A stretch of 64,000 nt of DNA, taken from positions 1-64,000 of IMG/VR virus record IMGVR_UViG_3300009537_000004. One strand, given 5' to 3'. Below, piece by piece: positions 30,780 through 61,164 of the stretch. The notes under the pieces are model-generated. The model had not been told where the DNA came from, searched no databases, and saw only the letters and a list, made by a program, of their open reading frames with translations. The position numbers and the translations under genes were made by a program. Every line of letters begins with the position of its first letter. Position 1 is the stretch's first letter. This DNA is from a virus.

Positions 30780-31421
30780 ATGTTCATTTACGCTATTAGA
30801 AAGAAAAGCAACCTCACACATGTTCTTATAGGACAAACTATTCAGAAAAATCCACAACAAAGATGGAAGTCCCATAAAAGAGCACTAAAAAGAAACATTC
30901 ATAAAAATCCCCACATTCAAAATGCTTGGAATAAGTATGGTGAGGATGCATTTGAATTTGTTGTTTTGACAGAAGCCAGAAATCAAGATGAATTAGATAA
31001 ACTTGAGTGGGTTTACGAGAAATTGTTTGGTTATTATAATCTTCGTGAGGGTGGGGGTGGTGGAAAATTCAGTGATGAAGCAAAAAGAAGAATGAGTGCT
31101 GCAAGAGTTGGAAAAGTTCCTTGGAACAAAGGATTAACCAAAGAAATTGACGACCGCATTCTAAGAGATAGTATTGCAAGACGGGGAAAGGGAAATCCTA
31201 TGTATGGAAGGAATTGGTCGCCTAAGCAACGAAAAATCATGAGAAAACAAATAGGCGAAAATCACCCGAACGCAAAACTTACTGAGAAAGATGTTATGGA
31301 GATAAGAAGAAGACATCAACCTTATAAAGTGGGATTTGGAAAACTGGCCAAAGAATATGGAGTAGATAAAAAATTGATTATTAATATTGTTAAACGACAA
31401 ATTTGGAAACATGTGAAGTAA
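30780..31421 (+). CDS. GIY-YIG homing endonuclease
   Basis: A 213-residue free-standing nuclease. The N-terminal GIY-YIG core is variant: F-I-Y-A-I-R, then V-L-I-G-Q-T, followed by R-W-K-S-H, N-A-W-N-K-Y-G, and the catalytic Glu region L-E-W-V-Y-E-K-L-F-G-Y-Y-N-L. The C-terminal part has NUMOD-like DNA-binding segments (F-S-D-E-A-K-R-R-M-S, G-K-V-P-W-N-K-G) and a helix-turn-helix (L-A-K-E-Y-G-V-D-K). It resembles the Seg family of T4. It sits between primase and the Mre11-Rad50 gene without interrupting either. Confidence 0.85.
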   Translation: MFIYAIRKKSNLTHVLIGQTIQKNPQQRWKSHKRALKRNIHKNPHIQNAWNKYGEDAFEFVVLTEARNQDELDKLEWVYEKLFGYYNLREGGGGGKFSDEAKRRMSAARVGKVPWNKGLTKEIDDRILRDSIARRGKGNPMYGRNWSPKQRKIMRKQIGENHPNAKLTEKDVMEIRRRHQPYKVGFGKLAKEYGVDKKLIINIVKRQIWKHVK

Positions 31422-52096: not shown

Positions 52097-52519
52097 ATGG
52101 TTAGACTCAAGAGTTTGTTGTTTGAAAGTGACTTGTCTGAAGAAGTAACATCAGGCTCCGAACCTATTAATGGCAAAAGCAAAACAAATGCCAAAAATTG
52201 GGTACACGGCAAAGTTGACAAGTATACCAAGGGATTTTTCAGTGACGAATATTGGAAGCCTATTCAGACCATATTCAAAGAGTTTGACGCACAAGGTTTG
52301 AATTGGGTTCCTACTGGTGCCAAGTATGAAGAAGAAGTCAAGACTCTTGCTGATGGCTCCCGACATTCTGTTCCTGTTAGAAAGACTTGGACATTTGAAA
52401 TTAGCTTCGTCAATAATAGAGATAAAGGGGATGTATTATATGGCCGCATTGTAGCGGCTGGATCAGGGCCGATAGAAAATCCGCTTGATAGATATGATGT
52501 GACTTTGACGTTGAGCTAA
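52097..52519 (+). CDS. possible internal head protein with CTS-like leader
   Basis: A 140-residue protein from ATG 52097 (CGGAG six bases before). The N-terminus M-V-R-L-K-S-L-L-F-E ends in Leu-Phe-Glu, a prohead-protease-type site, and resembles the leaders of the cupin gene at 52924 and the genes at 58141 and 59210. The rest is a beta-rich domain (W-T-F-E-I-S-F-V ... Y-D-V-T-L-T-L) of unknown family. Its place between terminase and portal, and the leader, suggest packaging in the capsid (inference). Confidence 0.6.
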   Translation: MVRLKSLLFESDLSEEVTSGSEPINGKSKTNAKNWVHGKVDKYTKGFFSDEYWKPIQTIFKEFDAQGLNWVPTGAKYEEEVKTLADGSRHSVPVRKTWTFEISFVNNRDKGDVLYGRIVAAGSGPIENPLDRYDVTLTLS

Positions 52520-52520
52520 A

Positions 52521-52937
52521 ATGCCTACGAAAAAGACTCAACCTATAGAGAGTGGTGAGGGGTTTCCAAGAGAATATTTACCACAGATTCCCAAAAAGAA
52601 GATTCCAACGTTCATTAGGATTCTTCAAAAGCATGGAGTGAAAGTTACAGCGGACCAAGTTCCTGCAGATAAAATAAAGCCGCTGCAGAAGAACGCGAAC
52701 AAAGAGAAGATTAAGAAGTTACAGCCGCATATATACCAATTCGCTCATGACCCGTTTATCGTGTCTGATGGTTTGTATCTGTTGGACGGACATCACAGAT
52801 GGTTGATAATCAAAGGCAGTAATAAAGACGCACCAGTGCTAACCATTCATGTTCACTTGCCAATTCAACAATTGATGAAACTGGCACACAAGTTTAGTGG
52901 TTCTCACAGGCGCAACGAGGAAGATGATACGGCTTAA
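52521..52937 (+). CDS. ParB/sulfiredoxin-like domain protein
   Basis: A 138-residue protein with the ParB-like pattern: P-Q-I-P-K-K-K-I-P-T-F-I-R near the start, I-Y-Q-F-A-H-D-P-F-I-V-S-D-G-L-Y-L-L-D-G-H-H-R-W (about residues 73-96). The D-G-H-H-R-W motif is the nucleotide-binding site of ParB-type CTPases and nucleases. Without other ParB domains it may act as a small nuclease or NTP-binding protein. It overlaps the cupin gene by 14 bases. Confidence 0.7.
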   Translation: MPTKKTQPIESGEGFPREYLPQIPKKKIPTFIRILQKHGVKVTADQVPADKIKPLQKNANKEKIKKLQPHIYQFAHDPFIVSDGLYLLDGHHRWLIIKGSNKDAPVLTIHVHLPIQQLMKLAHKFSGSHRRNEEDDTA

Positions 52938-53325
52938 AGATATTCTCTTAGAGAACGAACGCCAATTTGAAGGTGGGTTTGGCACTAACATCGAGAAGGA
53001 TAGTTTGGAGAACAAGAATTTTCGCAAAGTTCTCTATACTACCCATCAGATGCAATTAGTGGTCATGTCCATTGACACTGATATTGGTGAAGAGGTTCAT
53101 AAAGGAATAACTCAATTTATACGAATTGAGAGCGGGGAGGGAGTTGCAATCATTGACGGCAAAAAGTATCCGCTACGCGCCGGAGATTCAATTGTAGTCC
53201 CAGGTGGGTCAAGGCATAATGTGGTCAATACCGGAGATTCTCCGTTGAAGTTGTATTCGTTATATTCTCCCCCAAAGCATCCTCGAAAAACGATACATAA
53301 AACAAAAGAAGATGCAACAGAGTAA
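52924..53325 (+). CDS. cupin protein with CTS-like leader
   Basis: About 133 residues from ATG 52924, chosen over GTG 52897 because the N-terminus M-I-R-L-K-D-I-L-L-E then matches the leader of the gene at 52097, and GAGG lies just upstream. A cupin barrel follows: H-K-G-I-T-Q-F-I-R-I-E-S-G (motif 1) and V-P-G-G-S-R-H-N-V-V-N (motif 2), with metal-binding His residues. Cupins can be enzymes or sugar-binding proteins; the substrate is unknown. The Leu-Leu-Glu end of the leader fits prohead-protease cleavage. Confidence 0.7.
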   Translation: MIRLKDILLENERQFEGGFGTNIEKDSLENKNFRKVLYTTHQMQLVVMSIDTDIGEEVHKGITQFIRIESGEGVAIIDGKKYPLRAGDSIVVPGGSRHNVVNTGDSPLKLYSLYSPPKHPRKTIHKTKEDATE

Positions 53326-58091: not shown

Positions 58092-58165
58092 TGGCACTAT
58101 TAACTGATTATGTACAGCTGAGATACAAAAAGGATAAAATATGTTTGACATCAAAAAATTCTTAA
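58091..58165 (+). pseudogene. remnant of gp21 N-terminus
   Basis: The 24-codon frame starts M-A-L-L-T-D-Y-V-Q-L-R-Y, closely matching M-A-L-L-T-D-Y-T-P-L-K-Y of gp21 at 58626; the first 21 bases match at 20. It then runs out of frame into the next gene and stops. It is best explained as a leftover 5' end of a gp21 copy, with the gene at 58141 inserted beside it. It may still be translated as a short peptide. Confidence 0.7.
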
Positions 58166-58614
58166 CAGAAAACAATGTCACCACCGTAAGCAAAGTGGAT
58201 AAATTTTTGTCCGAAGGCATGATGGGATGGTCACATTGGGAGGAAAGTGATAACGCTGCCGATTGGCATGATAGTCTTGAAGATATTTGGAAACGATTTG
58301 AGAAGGGGCGGGACAAAGCAAAGCTCAAGGCAGATTTTCAGAAATGGCACGAGAAAATTCTCAAAGACAAATATGGATCAAGTTGGGATCTTGACGGTCA
58401 CATGGCGCTCCCGCTCATTGCCAATGATAAGTTGTATAAGCAAGTTCATGCTACATCAGGACTGAACGTCAAGCGATATTTTAGTGAAGCTATTAAGAAA
58501 ATACAATCAGATTTAAAAGCAGGTTCAGATTTAAGAGCAGGCGATGATGGCGCATCTCCTGGCTGGACTAGTGGACTAAAGAGAATGATTCAACTTGCTC
58601 AGAAATGGACATAA
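58141..58614 (+). CDS. possible internal head protein with CTS-like leader
   Basis: A 157-residue protein. Residues 1-10 are M-F-D-I-K-K-F-L-T-E, then N-N-V-T-T-V-S-K-V-D-K-F-L-S-E-G, giving two Leu-x-Glu sites, the second followed by Gly as in the T4 gp21 consensus. The mature part is Trp/Lys-rich and helical (W-S-H-W-E-E-S-D-N-A-A-D-W-H-D). The gene lies between the gp21 remnant and gp21 itself. An internal head protein injected with DNA is the leading idea (inference). Confidence 0.65.
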   Translation: MFDIKKFLTENNVTTVSKVDKFLSEGMMGWSHWEESDNAADWHDSLEDIWKRFEKGRDKAKLKADFQKWHEKILKDKYGSSWDLDGHMALPLIANDKLYKQVHATSGLNVKRYFSEAIKKIQSDLKAGSDLRAGDDGASPGWTSGLKRMIQLAQKWT

Positions 58615-58625
58615 GAGGATAATTG

Positions 58626-59210
58626 ATGGCACTACTAACTGATTATACACCGCTAAAATATAGCCGGCAGATGATTACAGAGGCTCTCCATAAGGGCGGG
58701 CCGCTTGTGCTGAAAAATGTATTACTACAGAGAGCAAACGCAAAAAACCAAAATGGAAGAGTGTATCCTCTCCCAATTCTTATGCGAGAGGGTGAGAGGT
58801 ATCAGGAGTTCATTAAGGAGCGACGAGCACTCGGCGAACTTGATCATCCCGAAAGTCCCGTCGTCAACCTTAAGAATGTCTCTCACAACGTTACCGAAAT
58901 GTGGTTCAATGGTGAAGATTTGGTGGGTAACCTTGAAGTTTTATCCACTCCATCAGGCAACATTCTCAAAGAGCTGTTGAAGAATGACATTAAGCTGGGA
59001 ATCTCAAGCAGAGGGCTAGGGTCAGTAAAAGAGTTGGACGAATCAACCGTTCAAGTTGAAGATGATTTTTCTCTCATTTGTTTTGACATAGTTTCAAATC
59101 CCTCCACGCAAGGTGCGTTCATTAATGAATCAGTTATTCCTGGGTCTCAGTGTGGACCATGGTGTAGAGTTGATAATTTGATCCATGAGTTTTTGACGGA
59201 GATGCGCTAA
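58626..59210 (+). CDS. 21: prohead core protease, gp21-like
   Basis: A 194-residue serine protease of the T4 gp21 class. ATG 58626 is chosen over TTG 58623 because AGGATAATTG precedes it and the N-terminus then matches the upstream remnant. The catalytic His74 lies in G-E-L-D-H-P-E, and the Ser is in L-G-I-S-S-R-G-L-G-S-V (Ser127 or 128). Near the N-terminus, M-I-T-E-A-L (residues 17-21) is a perfect Ile-x-Glu/Ala site, a possible self-cleavage point. It digests scaffold and trims leaders during capsid maturation. Confidence 0.92.
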   Translation: MALLTDYTPLKYSRQMITEALHKGGPLVLKNVLLQRANAKNQNGRVYPLPILMREGERYQEFIKERRALGELDHPESPVVNLKNVSHNVTEMWFNGEDLVGNLEVLSTPSGNILKELLKNDIKLGISSRGLGSVKELDESTVQVEDDFSLICFDIVSNPSTQGAFINESVIPGSQCGPWCRVDNLIHEFLTEMR

Positions 59211-59524
59211 TGTGGGATATTAAGAAGTTTTTAACGGAGAACAGACTAACTTTAATTGAACAAAGTCTCAACCCCTTTGAGCTTTATGACGACCACCCCA
59301 AAGCTGGTGCAGCCACAAAAAGTATCATGGCAGTTATTAAGACAGTAGCTCCTAAAGTTAAGTCTGGAAAAATGTCAGAGGAAGCAGCAGCAAAACTTGT
59401 GGCTAAGGAAGCTAGAAAGTGGTACTCTACAGGAGCAAATGATACTGCATCGCTAGAAGCTATTACGGATGTATTGGGGAAGGCAATTGGCAAGGGAATG
59501 GAATGGAGAGTGGACTCGTACTAA
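59210..59524 (+). CDS. small protein with CTS-like leader
   Basis: A 104-residue protein beginning M-W-D-I-K-K-F-L-T-E-N-R-L-T-L-I-E, nearly the same leader as the gene at 58141. The rest is helical and Ala/Lys-rich, with an E-E-A-A-A-K-L-V-A-K-E-A-R-K-W segment. It is coupled to gp21 by overlap (TAATG). A 15-base imperfect repeat lies at its 3' end. Probably an internal head protein (inference). Confidence 0.65.
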   Translation: MWDIKKFLTENRLTLIEQSLNPFELYDDHPKAGAATKSIMAVIKTVAPKVKSGKMSEEAAAKLVAKEARKWYSTGANDTASLEAITDVLGKAIGKGMEWRVDSY

Positions 59525-59545
59525 ACTAAATGGACTAGTACTAAA

Positions 59546-59974
59546 ATGACATTTGACTATAGAAAATTTTTGGCTGATAATAAGATCACCAACGTTTCCA
59601 GGCTTGACGAAGATATGCGTTATGGCCAATACTTTTACGATGATGTTGGGAAATTGATTAGTGGAAAAAGTATAGGAGATTGGAAAGTATCTTTCAACGG
59701 AATGTCGGGGGTATTAGAGTGGTCCAATAGAAAATATCCAAATTTATTTATTGCAGCTACTCCGTTTTGGGAAGGAAGTGAAGGAATACCAGGAGTAATA
59801 TCAAACGATTTTGGGGCAGCTTATTACAAAGAATTTAATATTCCGTGGCCAAAAGACAAGGTTACTGGTGACCCCAAGAAGGATGCTCTAATATACTTGA
59901 ACTTTATGAAGAAATGGTTTTCTAGGAACGCGTTGGGGTTTAAGAAAATGAACGCCATGAGAGCTAGGAGATAA
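59546..59974 (+). CDS. small protein with diverged CTS-like leader
   Basis: A 142-residue protein beginning M-T-F-D-Y-R-K-F-L-A-D-N-K-I-T-N-V-S-R-L-D-E. It aligns with the leaders of the genes at 58141 and 59210, but the first site is L-A-D rather than L-x-E; L-D-E comes ten residues later. The mature region is beta-rich with aromatic residues (L-E-W-S-N-R-K-Y-P-N-L-F-I-A-A-T-P-F-W). Unknown function; candidate internal protein. Confidence 0.6.
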   Translation: MTFDYRKFLADNKITNVSRLDEDMRYGQYFYDDVGKLISGKSIGDWKVSFNGMSGVLEWSNRKYPNLFIAATPFWEGSEGIPGVISNDFGAAYYKEFNIPWPKDKVTGDPKKDALIYLNFMKKWFSRNALGFKKMNAMRARR

Positions 59975-59976
59975 AT

Positions 59977-61164
59977 ATGACAGCAGTCAGCAAAGCACAA
60001 CAGCAAGCGGCGGGAATCGCATTGGCAGCTAAGAGAGCTGGCAAGAGCCCGAAGGCAGGAACTCCGTCAGCACAGATGTCAAAGATGCCTGAGAAGGAGT
60101 TGAGAAAGTTTGCCAAGACTTCTACTAAGGGACTGCCAGCAAAGAAAGAAGCTGTTGTCGCGGAAAAATCACCAAAGGGCTGGGAAAAAACGGTCAAGGG
60201 AATGAAAAAGCATAAAGACATTACCAATCCCTGGGCGTTGGCACATTGGATGAAGAAGAAAGGATACAAGTCTCATGAACAAGTTGAGAACAAACTCCGT
60301 GAATATATTCGTGAAGTTATTCGAGAAACTTTAGAAGAAAAGTATAAGGTTCGTGGAAAGCTTGGCACCGGAACCCGATTCAAAAACTTGGTCAAGTCGC
60401 TGGCAGCTCGAGAGGGAATAGAATTGACTGAAGATGATTATTGTGAGTTAGAAGAACAGAAGGTCCGTAATCCAGCAGCTTTGGCAGCATGGATCGGCCG
60501 TAAGAAATACGGGAAGCAAAAGTATCAGAAGATGGCAGCTAAAGGTAAGAAAGAGAGTGTTAAGGATTACGGCGCCAGAGTTAAAGAAACGGGCACGCCA
60601 GAAGGAGCAAAAAAGGGGTGGCAAAGCAGACTTAAAAGAGTCGCTCGTAAAGCATTTGATTATGAAGGTGAAACTGGTAGTACTGGTGAATTTCTAAGAA
60701 ATTATGCGCGCGCACTTGTCCGCTCACCATATGATGTTGCAAAAGGAATAGGTAGAATGAGAAAGGGCAAACAATTTATTGATCCTTATAATCCAAAGGA
60801 AGGAATTAACGAAGATGCTTTAAAAGACCTTATGTTTGGAGGAATGAAGACGTGGTGGAAATTTGATCCAGAAGACGTGATGCGTTTTATTTATTGGACA
60901 AAGCGCCAAGTCCCACCAGCAAATGATGCAAAAAGAAAAGAAGCCTGGAAAGCACTCATTCCTCAACTGCAAAAAAAGCATCCCGCACCAGCAAACGTTT
61001 ACAAAAAGTTGATGGGAGAAGTTGCAAAATTGCAAGAGAAGTGGGGCAAGGCAGAGGGGGTTGAAGAAGGTTATCCAAAAAAGCACAAGGGCCGAAGAAA
61101 GATTGGTTCAAGAAAAAGAAGGGCGATAAAAAAGCGCCGTCTTGCGCGTAAACAAGGGAGATAA
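59977..61164 (+). CDS. basic modular protein, DUF3008-like N-terminus
   Basis: A 395-residue strongly basic protein. Residues 1-55 (V-S-K-A-Q-Q-Q-A-A-G-I-A-L-A-A-K-R ... M-P-E-K-E-L-R-K-F-A) look like the DUF3008 family. An internal L-R-E-Y-I-R-E-V-I-R-E-T-L-E-E helix (about 108-122) matches the leader helix of other genes. Later P-A-A-L-A-A-W-I-G-R-K-K-Y-G segment and a C-terminal Arg/Lys tail suggest DNA binding. It may be a DNA-associated core protein of the head. Confidence 0.6.
   Translation: MTAVSKAQQQAAGIALAAKRAGKSPKAGTPSAQMSKMPEKELRKFAKTSTKGLPAKKEAVVAEKSPKGWEKTVKGMKKHKDITNPWALAHWMKKKGYKSHEQVENKLREYIREVIRETLEEKYKVRGKLGTGTRFKNLVKSLAAREGIELTEDDYCELEEQKVRNPAALAAWIGRKKYGKQKYQKMAAKGKKESVKDYGARVKETGTPEGAKKGWQSRLKRVARKAFDYEGETGSTGEFLRNYARALVRSPYDVAKGIGRMRKGKQFIDPYNPKEGINEDALKDLMFGGMKTWWKFDPEDVMRFIYWTKRQVPPANDAKRKEAWKALIPQLQKKHPAPANVYKKLMGEVAKLQEKWGKAEGVEEGYPKKHKGRRKIGSRKRRAIKKRRLARKQGR

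Follow-up and report, generated by a model that had tools for sequence, protein, structure and literature searches.

Several unrelated small proteins of this T4-like phage begin with the same kind of short N-terminal leader, which fits the register of the sequence that phage T4 uses to load proteins into its head for delivery into bacteria, and the same rule recovers enzymes already found inside the particles of other phages. Capsid-targeting sequences (CTS) are a classic feature of T4, and the internal proteins of T-even phages are known as diverse anti-defence proteins. In the papers searched, however, we found none that recognises this signal in the abundant T4-like phages of natural waters, and its generality appears unreported there. 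A register that is Glu-specific in viral but not in cellular genes turns many hypothetical proteins into predicted virion cargo.

Leader peptides around the prohead protease

The window analysed here, a 64,000-base stretch, comprises bases 1-64000 of a 71,124-base uncultivated virus record (IMGVR_UViG_3300009537_000004). Its head block runs from a terminase (50432) and a portal protein (53352; phrog_213, 2e-57) to a prohead protease, followed by a gp22-like ORF and a gp23 capsid protein (PF07068, 1.4e-74) just beyond the window end. A DNA-level search of the head region against named phages gave no match. The relevant features, all on the + strand, are as follows.

58141..58170 (+), leader 1, MFDIKKFLTE|N, with I4, F7, L8 and E10
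58204..58215 (+), second [LI]xE site of ORF 1 (FLSE, residues 22-25)
58141..58614 (+), leader-bearing ORF 1, 157 aa, orphan body, predicted internal head protein
58623..59210 (+), prohead protease, gp21/Peptidase_S77 (PF03420, 3.1e-24; phrog_207, 1e-47)
59190..59201 (+), FLTE near the protease C-terminus (I187-x-x-F190-L191-x-E193), a leader-like tail and possible autoprocessing site
59210..59239 (+), leader 2, MWDIKKFLTE|N
59252..59260 (+), second [LI]xE of ORF 2 (LIE, residues 15-17)
59210..59524 (+), leader-bearing ORF 2, 104 aa, body related to an ORF in the uncultivated relative G006
59546..59578 (+), leader 3, MTFDYRKFLAD, shifted by one residue, Asp at the cut position
59600..59611 (+), alternative site RLDE (residues 19-22) in ORF 3
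59546..59974 (+), leader-bearing ORF 3, 142 aa, orphan body
52097..52519 (+), further leader-bearing ORF, MVRLKSLLFE|S, 140 aa, directly after the terminase, [LI]xE only at residues 8-15
52924..53325 (+), further leader-bearing ORF, MIRLKDILLE|N, on a cupin domain (Cupin_2, 8.7e-17)
59977..61164 (+), ORF with an N-terminal DUF3008 module

The earlier note had described three otherwise unrelated small proteins next to gp21 with alignable leaders, the first two ending in Leu-x-Glu, and this observation holds. The leaders read MFDIKKFLTEN, MWDIKKFLTEN and MTFDYRKFLADN. In a short-query BLASTP, the first pair shows 91% identity over residues 1-11 (E = 8e-7; 10 of 11 residues shared), whereas the first and third match at 46% over about 28 residues (E = 3e-6), so that this similarity runs past the presumed cut. 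The bodies have no detectable similarity to each other. Of the 11 leader codons of the first pair, 7 differ synonymously, 1 differs non-synonymously (F/W) and 3 are identical, which argues against a recent copy or a DNA-level element and points to constraint on the peptide. Although the three ORFs are neighbours with similar starts, it is therefore highly improbable that the leaders are remnants of gene duplication or a translation/regulatory element at gene starts without a targeting role, a reading also disfavoured by the dozens of unrelated bodies, the rarity in cellular genes and the enrichment in virion proteins described below.

The scope of the observation is wider than first described, as the same 10-residue register also starts the ORFs at 52097 and 52924, and a matching Phi-x-x-Phi-L-x-E element (IHEFLTE) ends the protease itself. 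The closest homologue of known structure of the cupin (the cellular protein 2oa2) aligns only from residue 19 onward, as expected for an added tag. A fifth ORF (56243, MIRIREYIRE) fits the bare pattern but belongs to another leader type. All five ORFs of the genome that fit the register lie in the terminase-to-gp23 block (p = 0.0007).

The bodies are orphan or rarely shared. No Pfam or PHROG match to a known internal-protein family was found, but such homology is not a defining feature in T-evens, where only the CTS is conserved (PMC3012670). A search for relatives of the bodies found none for 59546 or 59210 at the sensitivity used, and for 58141 the only relative matches residues 1-21, the leader region. 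Structure predictions for 58141 and 59546 were of low confidence (pLDDT 42 and 62), and the 59546 model gave no fold match, leaving the functions of the bodies unassigned. PADLOC returned nothing for the window ORFs. The ratios of K+R to D+E in the three proteins (26/24, 16/14 and 23/16) do not settle whether the mature proteins are basic. In the window, ORFs 58141, 59210, 59546 and 52097 carry [LI]xE only within residues 1-25, as IPII and IPIII of T4 do, suggesting that the bodies survive proteolysis; over the wider set of leader proteins, the idea that bodies avoid internal [LI]xE does not hold (ratio 1.16).

The T4 register in relatives, viral contigs and cellular genomes

Translation of the T4 record gave MKTYQEFIAE for IPII and IPIII, MELITELFDE for Alt and MAKINELLRE for gp24, which share the register, as well as the gp23 site FLTE|A. 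A review of the mutant work states that in the IPIII leader targeting lies mainly in residues 4 and 7 and processing in residues 8 and 10, that the cut follows L/I-x-E, and that Asp at position 10 blocks processing but not targeting (PMC9026906). The first two leaders of the window fit this register residue by residue, with the hydrophobic residues I4/F7 and the site FLTE in both. The third has its hydrophobic residues at Y5/F8 and lacks [L/I]-x-Glu at the cut position (FLAD), its only [LI]xE being RLDE at residues 19-22, so that we describe 59546 as working like a CTS protein rather than as a full member of the T4-type internal proteins. Compared with T4 IPI, IPII, IPIII and Alt, the ten-residue leader, hydrophobic positions 4 and 7, [I/L/F]8, Glu10, an S77 protease and a shared leader on unrelated bodies are the same, but the leader residues differ (FDIKKFLTE against KTYQEFIAE), the genes lie beside gp21 here and far from it in T4, a second [LI]xE often occurs at residues 15-25, one leader ends in Asp, and the bodies have no family match to known proteins in Pfam or PHROGs.

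To test whether the register exceeds chance, we took 84 protease-bearing contigs plus this genome and asked which residue follows the pattern M-x-x-Phi-x-x-Phi-[ILVF]-x. It is Glu in 96 of 213 cases (45%), against 9% at the same position generally and 4-11% at neighbouring positions, while Asp accounts for 4%. When the bodies were clustered with the leader removed, 42 of 111 families have Glu (binomial p = 3e-16), whereas contigs and phages chosen without regard to this system gave 1 of 27. When residue 8 is L or I, residue 10 is Glu in 85/128, but otherwise in 13/126 (p = 2e-21); this coupling is the gp21 cleavage motif and not a generic helix. Related sequences are not fully independent, so that the p-values are guides, but the observed register is well beyond chance.

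The earlier note had stated that an equal occurrence of the leader in host or non-virion proteins would count against a capsid-targeting role. We scanned 2.9 million viral contigs and about 85,000 bacterial and archaeal genomes with a pattern fixing only residues 1-8 of the commonest flavour (MIKLKD[LF][LF]). Among the ORFs returned, neither scan being exhaustive, residue 10 is Glu in 99/112 viral but 6/54 cellular ones (p = 5e-23), and one of those six shares its sequence start with a viral contig hit. The 99 proteins fall into 55 unrelated body families. The alternative that the leader targets the proteins to the core but is not a cleavage site, with Glu10 being part of the docking helix, could draw on the Asp in the third leader and on a short helix that AlphaFold draws over the leader at low confidence. 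It appears very unlikely, because Asp is rare at position 10 (3/112 viral) where a helix charge would accept it, and because [L/I] and Glu are coupled. Moreover, leaders that lost Glu10 sometimes keep a nearby [LI]xE, as in 59546 (RLDE) and, among the viral contigs, L192 (MIKLKDLLNPPVLNEG, VLNE) and L265 (MIKLKDLLTDAKQTLTE, TLTE). In comparison with contig L162, L192 and L191 (MIKLKDLLTLRE) keep an [LI]xE shifted by 2-6 residues, a natural test of the cut-site requirement.

The exact leader flavour is clade-specific. A search for M[FW]D.KKF[LF] as a DNA pattern in the 2.9 million viral contigs gave only 27 stretches, mostly chance; the only ones beside a gp21 gene are in the relatives L102 (same contig as L003) and L103 (same contig as L002), both with Glu, and L111 also carries the true leader but has no gp21 in its contig. 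The closest relatives have the same flavour on other bodies, with MFDLKKFLKE and MTFDIKKFLAE in L002 and MFDLKKFLTE and MFDIKKFIVE in relative G001. In G006 (contigs L134-L135, 24366-25219), three tandem ORFs with MFDIKTFLAE, MFDIKTFLTE and MFDIKKFLTE leaders lie beside a tail-sheath-like ORF, in a 27.7 kb contig with no protease hit. The cultured Flavobacterium phage vB_FspM_immuto_3-5A (Immutovirus), whose gp21 is about 50% identical, has nearly identical leaders (FDLKKFLVENKL) on two different proteins (QQO92112 and QQO92096; MENFDLKKFLVENKLTTNSKILKE and MENTFDLKKFLVENKLTNNSRLLE), preceded by 2-3 extra residues and followed by different bodies, which suggests, without proving, a Bacteroidota host; no virion proteome of this phage was found in the literature searched. 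Eight of ten leaders of the flavour in this genome and the uncultivated relatives have a second [LI]xE at about residues 15-25, and T4 IPI has its cleavage-type site at residues 17-19 (ITE).

Probable protease substrates and cargo, and virion proteomes

The S77 protease matches the HMM over the catalytic domain and lies between the portal and scaffold genes. In gp23-type capsid proteins of the group, [LI]xE or IxxE-like sites align with T4 FLTE|A (QLIDE|S here, QIVSE|A in immuto). The gp22-like scaffold has five conserved [LI]xE, though this protein is Glu-rich. The IHEFLTE at the C-terminus of the protease is consistent with the published suggestion that gp21 propeptides act like targeting sequences, although in an alignment of 75 homologues the more distant relatives do not all keep the Glu. 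T4 gp67 and gp68 lie immediately upstream of gp21, the position of ORF 58141, and core proteins are also gp21 substrates, raising the possibility that the three ORFs are prohead-core proteins that help build the core and are consumed during maturation instead of being delivered as effectors. We consider this unlikely, as T4 gp67, gp68 and gp22 carry many [LI]xE sites along the chain, whereas the three ORFs have them only in residues 1-25, have no family match to gp67/gp68 and, unlike conserved core parts, have orphan or rarely shared bodies. The same leader register also sits on enzymes elsewhere.

In relatives (contigs given in parentheses), the leader precedes zeta-toxin-like kinases (L075 and L162; 3.9e-8 and 1.8e-10), NUDIX proteins (L248, L250), a 5'-nucleotidase (L131), an ART-PolyVal-like protein (L084; 1e-4, below the cut-off) and many orphans. 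Three consecutive leader-bearing ORFs are found in L084/L089 (17364-18660), two of them looking like ADP-ribosyltransferase-type proteins (VYHLTKKSNLSSIKKYGLKP; LWYHGRS). T4 Alt, a virion-borne ADP-ribosyltransferase with the same register, is the precedent.

Published virion proteomes of cultured cyanophages allowed an independent experimental check. The S-SM1 cytidylyltransferase GC190, found in virions (PMC3037559), starts MKKFSAFLNE|A, and five homologues keep the register. In S-CREM2 (PMC10665884, Table 3), the unchanged rule picks the SAM hydrolase gp6 (MKDFDSFLEE), gp13 (MKDLHSFLTE), the kinase gp14 (MKRFDAFLTE) and the cytidylyltransferase gp154 (MKNFSSFLTE), against one undetected 55-residue ORF. 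The virion-detected Cas9-like nuclease gp12 of S-CREM2 (L398, 4705-7314) has an internal leader-like FASFMAE|AA at residues 19-25, suggesting a targeting signal after an N-terminal extension. The S-SCSM1 NMNAT found in virions starts MKSFLQFLKE|A, and the S-CRM01 virion kinase (APH-like) starts MISFDQFLSE. For the stretches of S-CREM2 and S-SCSM1 examined, the motif is present in 5/27 detected non-structural proteins and 2/119 undetected ones (p = 0.0025); the rule was fixed before these genomes were read, but the stretches were chosen around the listed proteins. The leader flavour in these phages is MKxFxxFLxE. In the text examined, the authors name no targeting signal, and they note that virion enzymes could be contaminants; the register offers a direct answer to this question, which the S-CREM2 and S-SCSM1 papers left open.

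The earlier note had proposed that the leaders are capsid-targeting sequences of internal proteins that are packaged in the capsid and injected with the DNA, with unknown effector functions, and our analysis supports this reading with good confidence, subject to the Asp in the third leader, the lack of a general link to gp21 and the absence of direct evidence from this phage. In the most likely mechanism, the peptide M-x-x-Phi4-x-x-Phi7-[L/I]8-x-E10 would bind the prohead core through residues 4 and 7 and carry whatever body follows into the prohead. The gp21-type S77 protease, perhaps recruited by the similar element in its own C-terminal tail, would then cut after Glu10 (some proteins have a second [LI]xE at residues 15-25), freeing the body from the core. 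The body would stay in the head with the DNA and enter the host at infection, where it probably acts as an anti-defence or take-over protein. For the third ORF, Asp predicts targeting without cleavage there, and release would use RLDE. The sequences themselves show the leader, the register, the protease, the conserved [LI]xE in the gp23-type capsid protein and the modular distribution, whereas loading, cleavage and ejection in this phage, for which no virion proteomics exists, and the effector role are inferred, injection and the effector role from T4 IPI and IPIII and from the enzyme bodies of relatives. More broadly, we consider it more likely than not that a single 10-residue import code (M-x-x-Phi-x-x-Phi-[L/I]-x-E) is shared across the T4-like phages, from T4 and cyanophages to uncultivated aquatic phages, and grafted onto dozens of unrelated bodies (zeta-toxin-like kinases, ART-like, NUDIX, nucleotidase, cupin, SAM hydrolase, kinases and orphans). 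If so, the protein cargo of these virions could be read from genome sequence alone, and the puzzling enzymes in cyanophage virions would be genuine injected cargo.

Genomic location and neighbouring elements

The earlier note regarded the location beside the protease as fitting and had named clustering of leaders near gp21 as a point to examine. Such a position is not general: in relatives the leaders lie up to about 70 kb from the protease, and the T4 IP genes are also distant from gene 21. Co-occurrence of leaders with S77 on fragmentary contigs was weak (12/22 against 5/20, p = 0.07). Ten of the 22 long leader contigs, one of them 207 kb, have no S77 hit, possibly because they are fragments, and a phrog_207 search over leader contigs returned no hit anywhere, including the controls, and is uninformative. 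Among contigs of about 20 kb or more, a T4-type portal is found in 13/22 with a Glu10 leader and in 3/18 others.

A second shared N-terminal element of about 20 residues, of the type KIREMIREEVKRVLxE / EIVREEIRNVLAE, is found on several unrelated ORFs of the window (6792, 7285, 56243, 63728), at about 70378 of the full record, internally in 59977, and in relatives (e.g. KLREIIRELIKxELDE next to gp21), and may be another core-binding or processing signal. The DUF3008-type N-terminus of 59977-61164 (MPAVSKAQQKFMGMVHA) recurs on bodies of very different length in head clusters (contigs L012, L051, L052 and L059), and a protein with a similar N-terminus (S-SCSM1_93) is annotated as virion protein in cyanophage S-SCSM1. 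Finally, the N-termini of two ORFs (window 30780-31421 and 67394-68080 of the full record) resemble GIY-YIG-type endonucleases, the second lying right after the major capsid gene, where T4 has segD.
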